Below are positions 9,057 through 16,195 of a stretch of DNA of 32,815 nt, in pieces. The translations under genes and the position numbers were made by a program. The notes under the pieces were generated by a model. It was not told where the DNA came from and made no database searches. It worked only from the letters and a program-made list of their open reading frames with translations. This stretch comes from Bacillota bacterium. Its GTDB lineage: Bacteria > Bacillota > Dethiobacteria > DTU022 > UBA8154. The stretch is taken from positions 1-32,815 of the forward strand of contig JAAZMI010000055.1 in assembly GCA_012798895.1 (NCBI GenBank). The letters are read 5' to 3'. Numbering within the stretch: position 1 is the first letter of the stretch; every line of letters begins with the position of its first letter.

Positions 9057-9983
9057 ATGTATCTCGATCTAATAGTAGCCCTAAATTTTATTGTAAATTA
9101 TTTCCTTTTATGGCTGACCGCTTTTGTCACGGAACAGAAAACTTCTACAGCCAGGCTGGTAGCCGGTTCTCTATTCGGCGCAGCATTTATTTTAATTGTT
9201 GCCTGGCCTACCTGGTATCCTCTTTATACCTGGCTTGGCAAGACGCTTCTTCCGCTATCAATGATCCTGCTCACCTTTCGGCCACGGTTTTTTGGCCAGG
9301 GCCTTCTCCTTCTGTTCACTTTTTATCTTTGTTCCTGTACATTGGGCGGATTGGTTTTGGCCTTCAGCCTATGGGGGGAATACCCCCTGGATTTTGCAAG
9401 GGGAATCTATTACCTGCCGGCACCTTTTCTTTATTACCTGCTTTTCTTTTCCGGTGTTCTAATATTTTTTTTGGCACGCGGTCTCAAACCTTTTTTAGTG
9501 GAAAAGTTTAATTTAAGTCTCCTATCAAGAGAATTTGAAGTGGAGATTGGATTTTGTGGGAAGAATAAAAAACTTTCCGCCTACTTGGATACAGGTAATA
9601 TGCTCCGGGAACCTTTTTCCGGATTACCCGTTGCCATCACCAATCATACTGTTATCCGGGAGATGCTTCCTCCGGAGAGCGGGCGGGTATTTGGCAACGG
9701 GGGGGAGATGAACTGGCTTTTGTGGGAAAAGCTGTTTGCCGGGAATGACGAGGCAACAAAATTTTATCTTATTCCCTACCATACGCTGCAAGGCAAAGGG
9801 TTTCTTTTGGGCTTTAAACCGGAAAAAATTAGAATATGGAAAAAGGGCCGGGACCTCGGTTTCTCGCAAGAATTAATTATGGGCGTTCAGCCAAAGCAAG
9901 TCCATCCTGCGGGGGAATATGATGTTCTACTGCCGCTGGAGATCTGGCGTTCTGCCTGTAAACAAGAAGGGTTAGGGTTATGA
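9057..9983 (+). CDS. spoIIGA: Sporulation sigma-E factor-processing peptidase SpoIIGA
   Basis: Multi-TM N-terminus [22 protein letters not shown], aspartic protease motif [19 protein letters not shown], directly upstream of sigE; ATG at 9057 with AGGTGAGGGG preferred over ORF start 8973. Confidence 0.92.
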
Positions 9984-10714
9984 AAATAATTTTACTGTTA
10001 CAGCGCTGGAAAACGAAATTAACATTTCTATATTTCAGCCGTAAACTGGGTTTGCCATACAGTAGGATGGTCTACTATGTTTCAAGCAGCAAGGCGCTTC
10101 CTTCTCCCCTTTCTCCAGAAGAAGAACATACGCTTCTGGAACGCCTTAAAATTGGAGAAGAGGATGTCCGGAACGTTTTTATCGAGCGCAATCTACGCCT
10201 CGTGGTCTATATTGCCCGCAAATTTGAAAACACGGGGGTATATATAGACGATCTGGTTTCTATCGGCACGATTGGCTTGATCAAAGCTGTAAATACTTTT
10301 GATCCCCACAAAAAAATTAAACTCGCTACCTATGCTTCCAAATGTATAGAAAATGAAATATTAATGTTTCTGCGGAGAAATAATAAGATTAGGGCGGAGA
10401 TCTCCTTTGATGAACCCCTGAATGTTGATTGGGACGGCAATGAATTGCTGCTTTCAGATGTTCTCGGGACGGAGAGCGATCTGGTTGTCCGCAACCTGGA
10501 AAGCGAAGTGGATCGAAAACTGCTCTACTTAGCGATGGAGAAGCTTGCACCCCGCGAAAAAAGGATCATGCAGTTGCGATTTGGGCTCAACAACGGGCAA
10601 GAGAAGACACAAAAGGAGGTGGCCGATCTTCTGGGCATCTCTCAATCCTATATCTCGCGCCTGGAAAAACGCATTATCAAGCGTTTAAAAAAAGAAATCA
10701 AAAAAATGGAATAG
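9980..10714 (+). CDS. sigE: RNA polymerase sporulation sigma factor SigE (pro-sigma-E)
   Basis: [63 protein letters not shown]-terminal pro-sequence and [15 protein letters not shown] processing region; ATGA overlap with spoIIGA. Confidence 0.98.
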
Positions 10715-10723
10715 ACCTCTCCG

Positions 10724-10752
10724 GTATAAAATTAGATGCTCAGGAAATACTT
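10724..10752 (+). promoter_or_regulatory. Candidate forespore (sigma-F/sigma-G type) promoter for sigG
   Basis: GTATA (10724-10728), 14-bp spacer, GGAAATACTT (10743-10752) matching the sigma-F -10 consensus GGnRAnAnTw. Confidence 0.5.
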
Positions 10753-10813
10753 CTATTGAGGATCCAAAGTACAAGATATAGCCAAGTCACTGCCAGAGGA
10801 GAGGATATCCCCG

Positions 10814-11584
10814 GTGAATAAAGTCGAAATTTGCGGCGTAAATACTGCCAAACTGCCGGTTTTAAAAAACAGTGAAATGCGCAAGTTATTTACCAAGATG
10901 CTCAATGGGGATAAAGGGGCCCGGGAAAAGCTGGTCAATGGGAACTTAAGGCTTGTTTTAAGCGTTATCCAACGCTTTAACAACAGGGGGGAATACGTTG
11001 ATGATCTTTTTCAGGTGGGCTGCGTGGGCCTGATCAAGGCCATCGATAATTTTGATTTAAAACAGAATGTAAGGTTTTCTACCTATGCTGTACCCATGAT
11101 CGTCGGAGAGATACGCCGTTACCTAAGGGATAACACCCCGGTAAGGGTAAGCAGATCTCTGAGGGATATCGCCTATAAAGTGCTGCAGATTAGGGATCAG
11201 TTGGCCTATAAATTTTCGAGGGAGCCCACCCTGGAGGAGATATCCCAGGAGATCCTAGTGAGCAGAGAAGAGATCATCTTTGCCCTTGATTCCATCCAAG
11301 AACCGGTCTCTCTTTTTGAGCCCATCTTTCATGACGGGGGCGACCCTATTTTCGTTATGGATCAGATCAGCGATGATAAGATCCAGGATGAAAAATGGCT
11401 GAATGTGCTCTCCATTAAGGATGCTCTGCAAAAATTGAACGACAGGGAAAAATTGATCCTGACGCTCCGGTTTTACCGGGGGAAAACGCAGATGGAGGTA
11501 GCCGACGAGATCGGCATCTCCCAGGCACAGGTTTCACGCCTCGAAAAATCGGCGTTGGGGCAACTGCGAAAACATATCCAGTAG
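10814..11584 (+). CDS. sigG: RNA polymerase sporulation sigma factor SigG
   Basis: NKVEICGVNTAKLPVLKNSEMRKLF, NGNLRLVLSVIQRFNNRGEYVDDLFQVGCVGLIKAIDNFDL, QMEVADEIGISQAQVSRLEK. Confidence 0.98.
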   Translation: MNKVEICGVNTAKLPVLKNSEMRKLFTKMLNGDKGAREKLVNGNLRLVLSVIQRFNNRGEYVDDLFQVGCVGLIKAIDNFDLKQNVRFSTYAVPMIVGEIRRYLRDNTPVRVSRSLRDIAYKVLQIRDQLAYKFSREPTLEEISQEILVSREEIIFALDSIQEPVSLFEPIFHDGGDPIFVMDQISDDKIQDEKWLNVLSIKDALQKLNDREKLILTLRFYRGKTQMEVADEIGISQAQVSRLEKSALGQLRKHIQ

Positions 11585-11627: not shown

Positions 11628-11855
11628 ATGCAGGGAAATAAGAATAGATTTTACAGTTACCTACGTCTGTTGTTGTTGGGGTTCGTTCTTTTCAGTTTTT
11701 CATTCAAGTTCTCCCTGCAAGAGGGAAAGCTGGCCTTTGCCTACAATACATATAATCTTGAACGCAGTTCGGCCCATGAAAGACTGGTACAAAACCCTGC
11801 AGTAAGCGAAGAAGCCGATAGCGGTTTTGAAAATAATTCCATAGGGATCTTTTAG
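11628..11855 (+). CDS. Small protein (75 aa) with N-terminal signal-peptide-like hydrophobic segment, unknown function
   Basis: Strong RBS AAAGGAGGG upstream of ATG; hydrophobic LRLLLLGFVLFSFSFKF then LAFA-YN possible cleavage; directly downstream of sigG and before a strong terminator. Confidence 0.7.
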   Translation: MQGNKNRFYSYLRLLLLGFVLFSFSFKFSLQEGKLAFAYNTYNLERSSAHERLVQNPAVSEEADSGFENNSIGIF

Positions 11856-12066: not shown

Positions 12067-12318
12067 ATGGTTCGTCTCAGTGATCTGCGCGATCGGGATG
12101 TGATTAACCTCGATGGCAAAAGGTTGGGCGTGATCAGCGATCTGGATCTGGATCTGGAAAATGGGAGGATCAGGGCGCTTGTTCTACCGGGGTCGGGGGG
12201 GTTTATGGGGATGCTCGGTGCCCGCAAAAACGATCTGATTATTCCTTGGGAGCAGGTGCGAAAAATCGGTGTGGATGCCATTCTCGTTGATTATCCCATC
12301 GAATTTGAAAGGGGCTAG
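12067..12318 (+). CDS. ylmC: YlmC/YmxH family PRC-barrel sporulation protein
   Basis: MVRLSDLRDRDVINLDGKRLGVISDLDLDLENGRIRALVLPG ... IPWEQVRKIGVDAILVD, typical YlmC/YmxH PRC-barrel; position after sigG. Confidence 0.9.
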   Translation: MVRLSDLRDRDVINLDGKRLGVISDLDLDLENGRIRALVLPGSGGFMGMLGARKNDLIIPWEQVRKIGVDAILVDYPIEFERG

Positions 12319-12411
12319 GATTGGACAGACCGCGGGGGCTTTAATATAATGAATTTAATGATCTACAAAGGCCCGGCGGCGGTAGGCCGGCCGGCGTGAG
12401 GGGGTGGTAAT

Positions 12412-14277
12412 TTGGTGGGGGATGCTTTCCCTTTTAAAGAGATCTGCAAAAGAGATGGGAGAGTGGTGCCCTTTGATCCCCTTAAGATTACGCAGGCTAT
12501 CTTCAAGGCGGCAAAGGCCGTGGGCGGAGAGGATTATGCCCTGGCTAAGGAGTTGACGGGGGAGGTCATCGCTTATCTTCAGGGGCAGCAGATTGCCGGG
12601 CTGATCCCGACAGTGGAAGAGATCCAGGATGCAGTGGAAAAGATTCTCATCGAAAGAGGACATGCCCGGACGGCAAAAGCCTATATCTTATACCGGGCGA
12701 AGAGAACCCGTATCCGGGAAGCCAAATCAGAGCTTATGGATGTCGTTAAAGATATACTGCTCTTCGAGGGAGATCGGGGCCAGGATGAACATAGCCAGTA
12801 CTCACCGGCCGGAAAGATGCATCAGATTGCTTTGGCGGCCAGCCAAAAATACTATTTCGATAATTTGCTGCCGGCGGAGATCGCGGCTGCCCATCAACTG
12901 GGTAGTTTTCATATACATTGCCCGGGTTATTATAGTAAAACTTTGGATTCTTTGCAGTTGGATCTGTTCCCCGTGCTTAAAAAGGGTTTTGATCTGCATG
13001 AAAAGGCTCCGCCCGGCGATTTCTTAGCGATGCTTTGGAGAGTGGCCCTGCTTCTACAGAAAAATCAGCATGATCTCTTTGGTGAACAGGCCCTGCCTTT
13101 TTTTGACTGTGTGCTGGCCAGGCTGTGGCGCACCTTTAAGATAAAAGCTTCGAAAAAGGAGCTGCGGGCTGGAATATATACATTTATCGATTTTTTGGGA
13201 GCCCTTTCCTATATAGGTGGGAGTGCGCTGCGTTGTAGCATACAGTTGGGGCTGGATCAGACCCCGGAAGGAAGAGAGATTGCCGGGATTATTTTAGATG
13301 GTATTATGGCCCGTAAAGAAAAAAGTGGTGCCTGGCCAAAGTATATTTTTGTGCTGCAGAAAGGAATAAATTTTTCTAACGGCGATCCCAATTATGATCT
13401 ATATAAACAGGCCTTAAGGGCAGCAATCGCTGTTGGTAGCCCTTCATTTTTAGTCTGTAATGTACCCCACAGTGCCCCCGGTTTTCCTGATCCGGCGGGG
13501 CCGTGTTCTTTTGGCAACGGGTTGCGGGTGTCGGGCAACAGGTGCGGCCCGGAAGGGGGGAAAAAAAGGGGAAACATCGCCTCTTTGACCATTAATTTGC
13601 CGCGATTGGCCTTGAGTACCCGTGCGGATGATCTGTTTTTTGTAGAGTTGGACCGCCTGCTGCGCCTGGGGGTGCGCCAGTTGCTGCACCGTTTTGAGGT
13701 GCTGACCTCCTTGCAATGCAAGGATCTGCCTTTTCTGATGGGCAACAAACTCTATCAGGGAAGCGAGAGCCTGGCCCCCTGGGAAAGCATTCAAGAATCT
13801 TTGAAAAACGGCCTTTTGACATTTAATATTGCCGGCTTGCCGGAGACCCTGCGGGTCTTGGCCGGCACAGGGCAGAAGAAGGAGCAGGCTGCTGTTGGGA
13901 TGGCGGTTGAAGTTTTGCGGCATCTCTCCCGGCGCGTCCGATCTTTTGCAGAGGAGTATGAGCTAAACATTGCCCTGTGCGGGGTGGAAACCGAGGACAA
14001 GTTGTCGCGTTTTGTCGAAAAGGACCGCCATGAATTTGGCATGGTCTCCGGTGTTACAGATAAGGATTTCTACAATTCTAATTTTATTCTATTTCAAGAA
14101 GATGCCGGCCTCGCTGATAAGATTGCCCTCGAGGCGGCGATCCACCAACATTGCTCCGCCGGGCACGAATCCCGTGTCATCTTGCTTTCCGGCATGGAGG
14201 CCGAAGGGGCGGAGGAGATGGTTCGGGGACTGGTGGAGGCCGGGATTGATTATCTATCGCTTAACACGCTTTGTTAA
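12412..14277 (+). CDS. ATP-cone-containing anaerobic ribonucleoside-triphosphate reductase (NrdD)-like protein lacking the C-terminal Zn-ribbon/glycyl-radical domain
   Basis: ATP-cone ICKRDGRVVPFDPLKITQAIFKAAKAVGG; NrdD-like GDPNYDLYKQAL, NIASLTINLPRLAL, FGMVSGVTDKDFYNSNF; protein ends ...IDYLSLNTLC* where CxxCG...RVxGYL would follow. Confidence 0.82.
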   Translation: MVGDAFPFKEICKRDGRVVPFDPLKITQAIFKAAKAVGGEDYALAKELTGEVIAYLQGQQIAGLIPTVEEIQDAVEKILIERGHARTAKAYILYRAKRTRIREAKSELMDVVKDILLFEGDRGQDEHSQYSPAGKMHQIALAASQKYYFDNLLPAEIAAAHQLGSFHIHCPGYYSKTLDSLQLDLFPVLKKGFDLHEKAPPGDFLAMLWRVALLLQKNQHDLFGEQALPFFDCVLARLWRTFKIKASKKELRAGIYTFIDFLGALSYIGGSALRCSIQLGLDQTPEGREIAGIILDGIMARKEKSGAWPKYIFVLQKGINFSNGDPNYDLYKQALRAAIAVGSPSFLVCNVPHSAPGFPDPAGPCSFGNGLRVSGNRCGPEGGKKRGNIASLTINLPRLALSTRADDLFFVELDRLLRLGVRQLLHRFEVLTSLQCKDLPFLMGNKLYQGSESLAPWESIQESLKNGLLTFNIAGLPETLRVLAGTGQKKEQAAVGMAVEVLRHLSRRVRSFAEEYELNIALCGVETEDKLSRFVEKDRHEFGMVSGVTDKDFYNSNFILFQEDAGLADKIALEAAIHQHCSAGHESRVILLSGMEAEGAEEMVRGLVEAGIDYLSLNTLC

Positions 14278-14334
14278 GGGGCGGTATGGCGGGAAAACCG
14301 GCACAGTTTTTTCCCGGGGTAGCGGGGTGATGAA

Positions 14335-15498
14335 ATGAGGAGAAGAAAACCAAGAGCCGGGCCCAGGCCTTCTTACCTGAAGGTGATCGAGGGCCAGGGC
14401 CGGGGAGAAACCGTGCCCGCAAAGGCCGGGATGGAAAACAGGGGATCGCAGGGGCCGGTGTATTTTCTTTTGTTTTCGCTGGCGTCTATTTTGATCGTGC
14501 AGATGCTTATCGGCTGGGTTTGGGGGCCAACCACCCATAGCTCTCTTCACACTGTTTCTGTTGTTGAAAGCAAGGCCGATATCTCTTTTCCTATATCGGG
14601 GATCATCACTTTTAAAGAAAAGGTTCTCCTCGCTCCTTGTGCAGGGTTTGTATATTACAATATTAACGGCGGGCAGAGGGTTCCCGTGGATAAGGAACTG
14701 GCAATAATCTCTGCTTCCCCCCTGGAAAAGGAGGCTAAAACTGAGGGTAATGGTACGGCAGGGGCGGAGGCATCGTTGCAACGTTTCAAGGGATGGTTTT
14801 GGGGGGAAGAAAGGGAAGAGGGGCAAGACCGGGGGCATGCACATCTTTCACCTATCCACGAAGAGGTCAAAATCTATGCACCGGAACCCGGCCTGGTCAG
14901 CCTGAATTTTGAGGGCCTGGAAGGATTTGGGCCGCAGGGCGGCTTCCCGTATTTTTCGGCGAAAGAGTTACAAGATAAAGTATGCCCGGCGGATTCTCTT
15001 CGCTCCGGGGACAGGGTGTGCCGTTCCCAACCCCTGCTCAAGATTATCGATAATTATTACTGGTATTACAGCGTTGTTCTTCCCCGGGATCCGGGGCAAC
15101 TGATTGCCGAAAAGCCCAAGGTGAAGTTTTATTTTTCTTTTGCTCCGGAGACCCCCGTCTGGGGTGAACAGGTGGAGCTGAAAGAAAACGATACGGATGG
15201 TACGCTGTTGGTAACATGGCGCATCGATCGGGAGATACCCGGTCTTTATAATCAACGCTGTTGTAAAGCAGAGATCGTCTACGAGGAAAAACCGGGGGTG
15301 CTCGTGCCCAAGAGCGCCCTTGTGGAGGCCGGGGAAAAACAGGGGGTCTACTATTTGGAAAAAGGAGCGGTGCATTTCCGTGAGATCGAGCTCCTTCTTG
15401 AAAAAGGGGAGGATGTCTTCATCAAAAGTTGGGATGGACAACAGAGAATAATAGCCAACCCGGAGAGCGTCAAAGAAGGCCAACGGTTTAGATGGTAG
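14335..15498 (+). CDS. HlyD-family efflux periplasmic-adaptor-like membrane protein
   Basis: N-terminal TM (VYFLLFSLASILIVQMLIGWVW), split lipoyl-like segments, VLVPKSALVEAGEKQGVYYLEKGAVHFREIELL typical of the HlyD/RND adaptor C-terminal region. Confidence 0.68.
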   Translation: MRRRKPRAGPRPSYLKVIEGQGRGETVPAKAGMENRGSQGPVYFLLFSLASILIVQMLIGWVWGPTTHSSLHTVSVVESKADISFPISGIITFKEKVLLAPCAGFVYYNINGGQRVPVDKELAIISASPLEKEAKTEGNGTAGAEASLQRFKGWFWGEEREEGQDRGHAHLSPIHEEVKIYAPEPGLVSLNFEGLEGFGPQGGFPYFSAKELQDKVCPADSLRSGDRVCRSQPLLKIIDNYYWYYSVVLPRDPGQLIAEKPKVKFYFSFAPETPVWGEQVELKENDTDGTLLVTWRIDREIPGLYNQRCCKAEIVYEEKPGVLVPKSALVEAGEKQGVYYLEKGAVHFREIELLLEKGEDVFIKSWDGQQRIIANPESVKEGQRFRW

Positions 15499-15520
15499 CA
15501 TTAAAGGAGTGTATGTAGTG

Positions 15521-16195
15521 ATGCTTGAAAAAAATTTGGCAGCAGTGCGGGAACGTCTGCAGAAGGCCGCGGCTAAGAGAGGGGCTTCCTTGGGGGATAT
15601 CACCCTCGTTGCTGCAACCAAAACCGTGCCGGTAACGACAATCCGCCGGGCGTATGCCCTGGGGATGGCACATTTCGGAGAAAATCGCCTGCAGGAAGCC
15701 GAGGAGAAGATTGGCGCCCTGCCTCCCGCCATCCATTGGCATTTTATCGGCCACCTACAGACCAACAAGGTAAAAAAAGTATTGCCTGCTTTTGAACTTA
15801 TCCATTCTCTGGATCGGATGAGATTGGCCCGCAGGATACAGAGAGAGGGAGAAAAGATCGACAGGAAGATAGATGTCCTTTTACAGGTGAATATCGGTTT
15901 AGAAAAGAGCAAACAAGGCTTCCACCCGGGAGAAGTAGAAGATGCCCTGACCGAATTGGCCACTTTTTCCCACCTACGAATATTGGGTTTGATGGCTATT
16001 GCCCCTTTTTTTGATGATCCGGAAGAGACCCGGCCTTATTTTCGTCATCTCTCCGATCTTTCCAAGCAGATCCAGATCCCGGGGGTTGCGATGAAATATC
16101 TTTCCATGGGTATGAGCAACGATTTTGAGGTGGCGGTAGAGGAAGGAGCAAACATGGTGCGTTTAGGCAGCATTCTTTTTGGCGAACGACATTAG
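15521..16195 (+). CDS. ylmE: YggS/YlmE family pyridoxal phosphate homeostasis protein
   Basis: LVAATKTVPVTTIRRAYALGMAHFGENRLQEAEEKI, HFIGHLQTNKVKK, LGLMAIAPF, LSMGMSNDFEVAVEEGANMVRLGSILFG. Confidence 0.95.
   Translation: MLEKNLAAVRERLQKAAAKRGASLGDITLVAATKTVPVTTIRRAYALGMAHFGENRLQEAEEKIGALPPAIHWHFIGHLQTNKVKKVLPAFELIHSLDRMRLARRIQREGEKIDRKIDVLLQVNIGLEKSKQGFHPGEVEDALTELATFSHLRILGLMAIAPFFDDPEETRPYFRHLSDLSKQIQIPGVAMKYLSMGMSNDFEVAVEEGANMVRLGSILFGERH

Follow-up and report, generated by a model that had tools for sequence, protein, structure and literature searches.

What becomes of a class III ribonucleotide reductase (RNR) that has lost the domain bearing its glycyl radical, and does its place among sporulation genes say anything about its role? 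The question is raised by a window of 32,815 nucleotides (the whole stretch of DNA analyzed; contig JAAZMI010000055.1, assembly GCA_012798895.1) from a Bacillota bacterium, whose genome is available as a fragmented assembly of 1.84 Mb in 211 contigs (87.5% complete). The window carries a gene derived from nrdD, and we use the label psNrdD for the NrdD-derived pseudoenzyme that it encodes. The GTDB family to which the window belongs, comprising 10 genera and 23 genomes, is called f1 hereafter. Coordinates are collected in Table 1.

Table 1. Position of psNrdD, its main sequence features and its neighbors in the window.
Feature	Coordinates	Strand	Remarks
sigE and sigG	9980..11584	+	Upstream part of the conserved neighborhood
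ymxH/ylmC family gene	12067..12318	+	Upstream of psNrdD; the nrdR of some relatives is missing at this place in the window
Sigma-A-like promoter TGGACA-17-TATAAT	12322..12350	+	Conserved in f1
Shine-Dalgarno-like stretch before TTG	12398..12407	+	Similar stretch in relatives
psNrdD CDS	12412..14277	+	621 aa, TTG start, TAA stop, frame uninterrupted; conserved family-wide
ATP-cone, residues 9-100	12436..12711	+	PF03477; P. copri a-site (PMC11226230) mapped via alignment
NxN flap position, residues 119-127	12766..12792	+	Motif lost; segment variable, low confidence in AF2 model
Ser180 codon	12949..12951	+	Position of catalytic Cys171 of P. copri NrdD
Glu225 codon	13084..13086	+	Gly in 32/32 functional NrdDs; Glu in 4/5 inactive groups
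Asn369 and Gly370 codons	13516..13521	+	369, position of radical-initiating Cys416; 370, Arg in 32/32 functional NrdDs and Gly in every inactive group
Helix 404-431	13621..13704	+	Among the best-conserved barrel segments; equivalent to P. copri 458-485
HlyD-like membrane protein gene	14335..15498	+	Downstream of psNrdD
ylmE/YggS family gene	15509..16195	+	Part of the conserved neighborhood

The initial annotation had described an unbroken 621-codon frame encoding an ATP-cone and a class III barrel without the glycyl-radical/Zn domain, and both points held. The Pfam ATP-cone (PF03477) matched residues 10-99 of psNrdD (E = 2.8e-22; 79.5 bits against a cut-off of 25.8), and the NRDD profile matched residues 129-619 (E = 1.5e-69) over its columns 6-506 of 562, so that the missing part is C-terminal only. 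The nearest NCBIfam model was PRK07111 NrdD (NF005497), reached with 416 bits against a cut-off of 764. The KRDG-type hairpin and the basic and aromatic residues of the a-site are present in the cone. Residues K7, R8, D9, R11, Y83, R87 and R91 of the Prevotella copri (P. copri) a-site, where two nucleotides are held, correspond to K13, R14, D15, R17, Y94, R98 and R102 of psNrdD, the last one located just past the end of the cone. The AF2 model had a pLDDT of 85.1, falling below 50 at residues 119-127, and the nearest solved structures according to Foldseek were the dATP tetramers of P. copri NrdD (8p2c/8p28, TM 0.79). The protein is therefore predicted to retain the RNR/GRE barrel fold.

We found psNrdD in 22 of the 23 f1 genomes, with 47-71% identity, as 19 complete copies and partial ones (those of G010, G011 and G013 were broken by contig ends). 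In the sole genome without a match (G002, 79% complete), the locus itself was not seen. All 19 complete copies end at residue 612-624, before the start of the zinc ribbon, and none has an internal stop; this shared end point in different genomes excludes a frameshift or an assembly artefact. No downstream sequence that would restore the missing domain was found, as already proposed. Only 57 bases separate the stop codon from the next gene, and a family-wide search, at the sensitivity used, revealed no stand-alone Zn/glycyl-radical domain in any f1 genome. Nei-Gojobori dN/dS values for 11 f1 pairs ranged from 0.074 to 0.155 (single values are rough, as several pairs had dS above 1.5), and purifying selection thus maintains the gene. 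Along with the intact frames, these values exclude a decaying pseudogene in f1. Hence, psNrdD is intact, fixed and under purifying selection in f1, in agreement with the view first taken of this gene; neither a dN/dS near 1 nor an absence from close relatives was observed. The rare start codon TTG is used in all 19 complete copies (position 12412 in the window; relatives L003-L022).

The catalytic parts were compared using P. copri NrdD (PMC11226230) as a residue guide, with 26 functional NrdDs and then 32 when more lineages were included. The catalytic sites were invariant in the functional copies (26/26, and 32/32 on the wider sampling). Column 180, the place of catalytic Cys171 in P. copri, was Ser in 19/19 f1 copies and Cys in 32/32 functional NrdDs. 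Column 369, which holds the radical-initiating Cys416 and was likewise Cys in 32/32 functional sequences, was occupied in f1 by Asn (13 copies), Ser (3 copies), Asp, Gly or Thr. Beside it, column 370 was Gly in every f1 copy (19/19) versus Arg in 32/32 functional NrdDs, and column 225, the second Gly of the GGQ motif, was Glu in 18/19 f1 copies versus Gly in all 32. Two substitutions pointed out in the initial annotation were thus real, the change from NC to DS being N179D/C180S and that from an HIYGGT-like segment to DLFGEQ being G225E. One detail was mistaken: the GPCSF cysteine, described there as lying near the PMGCRSF position, does not occupy the radical column, which is Asn369 in the window, and the alignment excludes it as a surviving radical Cys. 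The GPCSF cysteine was absent in at least five relatives (L005, L016, L018, L019 and L021). The NxN flap, the Asp of the HxHD triphosphate motif, the loop 2/s-site residues and the C-terminal RxxGYL glycyl-radical loop were also gone from psNrdD, and eight sites invariant in functional NrdDs had changed to another nearly fixed residue in f1. Judged from its sequence, psNrdD is non-catalytic and disabled at many independent points. A predicted enzyme fold, lost catalytic residues, an intact frame and purifying selection come together in this protein, which would make it a pseudoenzyme.

The origin of psNrdD can be read from its locus. The gene order in f1 is spoIIGA-sigE-sigG-ymxH-[nrdR]-psNrdD-[ylmD]-hlyD-ylmE-yggT-ylmH-divIVA, and the neighbors spoIIGA, sigE, sigG, ymxH, hlyD and ylmE were as first annotated. 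In sister families, at the levels of order and class, the same place is occupied by sigE-sigG-ymxH-nrdR-nrdD-nrdG-ylmD-hlyD-ylmE, where NrdD is full-length (about 700 aa) and has both CxxC...CxxC and RRITGYL; functional nrdR-nrdD-nrdG genes were found at this locus across much of the phylum. Thus, psNrdD is the old nrdD minus its C-terminus and nrdG. Because its locus is the ancestral place of nrdD, a duplicate paralogue is excluded, and of the earlier description as a non-catalytic paralogue only the first half stands, the ancestral NrdD having been inactivated in place. The ylmD gene (PgeF family) lies between psNrdD and hlyD in most relatives and is missing in the window (14277-14335) as well as in L116 and L129. 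Between sigG and ymxH, the window has a weakly conserved ORF of 75 aa with an N-terminal hydrophobic stretch (11628-11855), and at this place other lineages have a gene of approximately 200 aa resembling spoIIR.

The position beside sigG had been taken to suggest that psNrdD acts during sporulation. Since nrdR-nrdD-nrdG occupy the same place elsewhere, this position was inherited from the functional gene. A sigma-A-like promoter, TGGACA-17-TATAAT, lies directly before psNrdD in ten f1 genomes without nrdR, the window included, and before nrdR in the six with an intact nrdR; a few nrdR-less relatives do not have such a promoter. In functional orthologues, nrdR is likewise preceded by a sigma-A-like promoter, in many cases with NrdR-box-like palindromes (ACAATATATTGTG in the spacer and a second copy downstream), and these palindromes are absent from the f1 promoter. 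With the palindromes lost and strong sigma-A-like hexamers kept, psNrdD is probably made constitutively, a sign that vegetative cells may express it steadily and outside the control of NrdR. The proposed link to sporulation has no support other than the position of the gene.

We also investigated which other RNR genes accompany psNrdD. No nrdG was present at the psNrdD locus, and no match to TIGR02491 exceeded the cut-off in f1 genomes. A PRK08270-type NrdD above the curated cut-off was encoded elsewhere in f1 and f4 genomes (f4 is described below) and in no other genome of the order; in f1 it is a foreign NrdD. We infer that this second NrdD came first and permitted the loss of catalysis. In the window genome, the first codons of the PRK08270-type gene were found at a contig end (C5:4-144; L002/L134), adjoined by a ComEC-like gene, the same neighbor as in relatives. 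The class II RNR NrdJ was present in the window genome (contig C206) and in most relatives, had no ATP-cone where its N-terminus was read, and also occurred in genomes with a functional NrdD. The repressor gene nrdR was often lost where psNrdD is kept: its distribution across f1 is patchy, with intact copies in 6/23 genomes, a remnant in G012 (L126:6673-6957) and none in the window genome (gap 12318-12412). As nrdR is lost in most of f1, NrdR cannot be a general partner of psNrdD and is excluded as an obligatory one. A scan for NrdR-box-like sites before the PRK08270-type nrdD or nrdJ in f1 gave nothing convincing.

Five inactive groups were found: f1, the families f4 and f62, the latter in a survey of 300 genomes across the phylum, and two single species of family f2, G045 and G052. 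In f62, which belongs to another class, the NrdD at the same locus has 602-608 aa and no nrdG there, and its degenerate C-terminus keeps the zinc ribbon and has VQRGGYL or TQDGGYI as radical loop. All four genomes of the f62 order carry the inactive-type gene, one only in part; a second full-length NrdD was found elsewhere in G158 and G196 of f62, adjoining nrdG in G158, where it was read. The G045 copy is truncated (659 aa), with neither nrdR nor nrdG, and NrdJ was the only other RNR detected in this genome, where no other NrdD was found. The G052 copy is full-length with RVSGRL instead of RITGYL, again without nrdG and nrdR, and the f4 copy (G067) is truncated to 574 aa. The CxxC...CxxC zinc ribbon is absent in f1, f4 and G045, and G052 and f62 keep it ahead of a degenerate loop.

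In the tree, G045 and G052 fell inside f2 beside functional copies and f1 formed a separate clade. A single clade of all inactive copies was rejected with f62 added (AU test, p = 0.005), which excludes one ancient inactivation common to all groups, although f4 and f62 are long branches, which weakens single placements, and f1 and f4 may represent one event. Every inactive group nevertheless had Gly at 370, no Cys at 180 and a lost NxN flap, and four of the five had Glu at 225. Of seven sites changed jointly in G045 and f1, four carried the same new residue where 0.4 was expected (P = 3e-4, under a simple BLOSUM-based expectation); for G052 alone, the replacements shared with f1 were not significant. 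The tree and alignment indicate that pseudo-NrdDs arose separately several times at one locus, and the single species G045 and G052 could be at an early stage of decay. Other NrdD architectures were also seen. In L039 (also L038), the large ORF of a split NrdD ends after the zinc ribbon, and in L039 a 51-aa ORF with RRITGYL follows (L039:7147-7302; JAUNJX010000064.1), then nrdG. Long open frames with intein-like insertions were found in PRK08270-type NrdDs (L133:1080-4253, L140:236-3388), in a locus-resident NrdD (L180:5343-9011) and apparently in NrdJ (frames of about 1100 aa), in many genomes of the class.

What the inactive copies have kept is unevenly distributed. Of the residues invariant in functional NrdDs (n = 32 sequences), 26/31 in the cone and linker survived in all five inactive groups versus 19/152 in the barrel (Fisher p = 8.6e-15, neighboring sites not being fully independent). 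The a-site residues were invariant across all inactive groups except for one Y94H. Pairwise identity in pseudoenzymes and functional NrdDs was 0.78 and 0.75 for the cone, 0.87 and 0.79 for the linker, 0.80 and 0.81 for helix 132-175, and 0.83 and 0.71 for helix 404-431, while the rest of the barrel reached 0.49 in pseudoenzymes versus 0.75 in functional copies. Many barrel-interior segments of the pseudoenzymes had identities of 0.31-0.5, and the s-site/loop 2 region 0.43. In P. copri, segment 458-485 is one of two helices that, within the dATP tetramer, touch the roof of an ATP-cone belonging to the other dimer (PMC11226230); conservation of the second docking helix (497-516) was not exceptional in pseudoenzymes. 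Even active NrdDs do not conserve the contact residues of the dATP tetramer well (PMC11226230), and the NrdD of S. thermophilus forms no tetramers (PMC12662201). These patterns indicate that the ATP-cone, the presumed sensor, is selectively retained across lineages. The conserved cone residues reflect constraint, and nucleotide binding by psNrdD may be its cause.

We consider it somewhat probable that psNrdD is a non-catalytic protein sensing ATP and dATP and acting on RNR or on dNTP control. It descends from the housekeeping anaerobic RNR of the sigG-ymxH-nrdR-nrdD-nrdG locus, whose catalysis other RNRs may have made dispensable. The losses took place at this locus and comprise the glycyl-radical/Zn domain, nrdG, the two catalytic cysteines, the NxN flap and the s-site/loop 2 motifs. 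Selection has preserved the ATP-cone, the linker that joins it to the barrel, one long core helix and an outer helix that would contact the cone as in the P. copri homologue. The cone would still bind ATP or dATP, and their ratio might switch the oligomeric state or surface exposure of psNrdD. Such a switch could control a partner non-catalytically, most likely an RNR or another dNTP-related target; placing the partner in RNR control requires the fewest assumptions. As a target, NrdJ has the appeal that it is cone-less where read and the only other RNR detected in G045, but it also occurs where NrdD is functional, so its presence does not single it out. The more specific proposal, that spore-forming Bacillota repeatedly turned the NrdD of this locus into an independent pseudo-reductase that senses ATP/dATP and regulates the supply of dNTPs in trans, for instance through gating of the cone-less NrdJ, is for us a tentative one, about which we are more doubtful than confident.

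The emptied active site could instead have acquired a new function, in ligand binding or as an enzyme, of which the recurrent C180S, G225E and R370G would be the marks and which the cone would only regulate. The eight nearly fixed replacements in f1, the recurrence of R370G in every group and G225E in 4/5, and a sharing with G045 that chance would produce with P = 3e-4 speak for this reading, yet no other part of psNrdD is under as little constraint as the interior of the barrel (identities of 0.31-0.5 in many segments), in contrast to a new active site, and only the 19 of 152 barrel invariants noted above are kept in all groups; we regard it as rather unlikely. Less likely still would be a prozyme-like regulatory subunit that forms mixed dimers with the PRK08270-type NrdD, inhibiting or activating it. 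While f1 genomes hold both proteins and catalytically inactive paralogues are known to activate a partner (PMC5201418, PMC3663545), a psNrdD was found in G045 with no other NrdD, only NrdJ, the candidate partner is about 38% identical in its N-terminal part only, and the s-site/loop 2 region is not conserved (0.43).

A functionless relic in slow decay would fit the loss of the activase, the C-terminal domain and often nrdR, as well as the intermediate state of G052, which is full-length with RVSGRL and no nrdG. For f1 this is largely refuted by dN/dS values of 0.07-0.16, by complete copies free of internal stops in 10 genera, by the conserved promoter and by the selective survival of cone residues, and we give it very little credence. 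Finally, catalysis could persist if a separate peptide provided the glycyl radical in trans, and the split NrdD of L038/L039, with its 51-aa glycyl-radical ORF, is a precedent from other Clostridia; but a peptide of this kind was not found in the family-wide search of f1, psNrdD has neither of the two catalytic cysteines nor the NxN flap, and no nrdG exceeded the cut-off in f1, leaving this the least credible explanation of all.

Herpesvirus RNR homologues without reductase activity are a case in which a large-subunit homologue is kept for non-catalytic work; these are class I, viral and different in role. The closest known relative of psNrdD is the PRK07111-type NrdD (P. copri 8p23/8p28/8p2c), with the same cone, linker and ten-stranded barrel, from which psNrdD, a direct descendant at the same locus, differs by having no Zn/glycyl-radical domain, catalytic cysteines, NxN flap, s-site/loop 2 motifs or nrdG. 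NrdR, the ATP-cone repressor of RNR genes that is encoded directly upstream of psNrdD in some relatives, shares the cone, but psNrdD has no DNA-binding Zn-ribbon and no sequence relation to NrdR outside the cone. Enzyme folds kept without catalysis are also found in the trypanosomal prozyme of AdoMetDC and the dead subunit of deoxyhypusine synthase (PMC5201418, PMC3663545); those are proven partners of an active paralogue, whereas psNrdD is the original gene rather than a duplicate and its partner is putative. The NrdB of L. blandensis carries an ATP-cone, and a cone can thus control RNR from a non-catalytic polypeptide (PMC5794259), although the RNR subunit to which it is fused there is an active one. 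No description of an inactive NrdD, an RNR pseudoenzyme or this locus was found in the open-access literature, and the targeted passages of large RNR family surveys contained no NrdD pseudoenzyme. Pseudoenzymes as such are already known; a recurrent inactive class III RNR that keeps its ATP-cone appears to be new, in one of the most studied enzyme families.

These conversions, which took place separately at a single locus, share replacements and selectively spare the cone, constitute a natural experiment in which the chemistry of RNR is removed and its allosteric sensor is left. An nrdD annotation may also refer to a dead copy, a point to bear in mind when RNR content is used to infer an oxygen lifestyle. 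If the sensing role is true, the cone-plus-barrel scaffold would by itself have a biological output, and normal NrdD may turn out to have a non-catalytic role as well. If control in trans is also true, ordinary NrdD would already carry a second, regulatory role.
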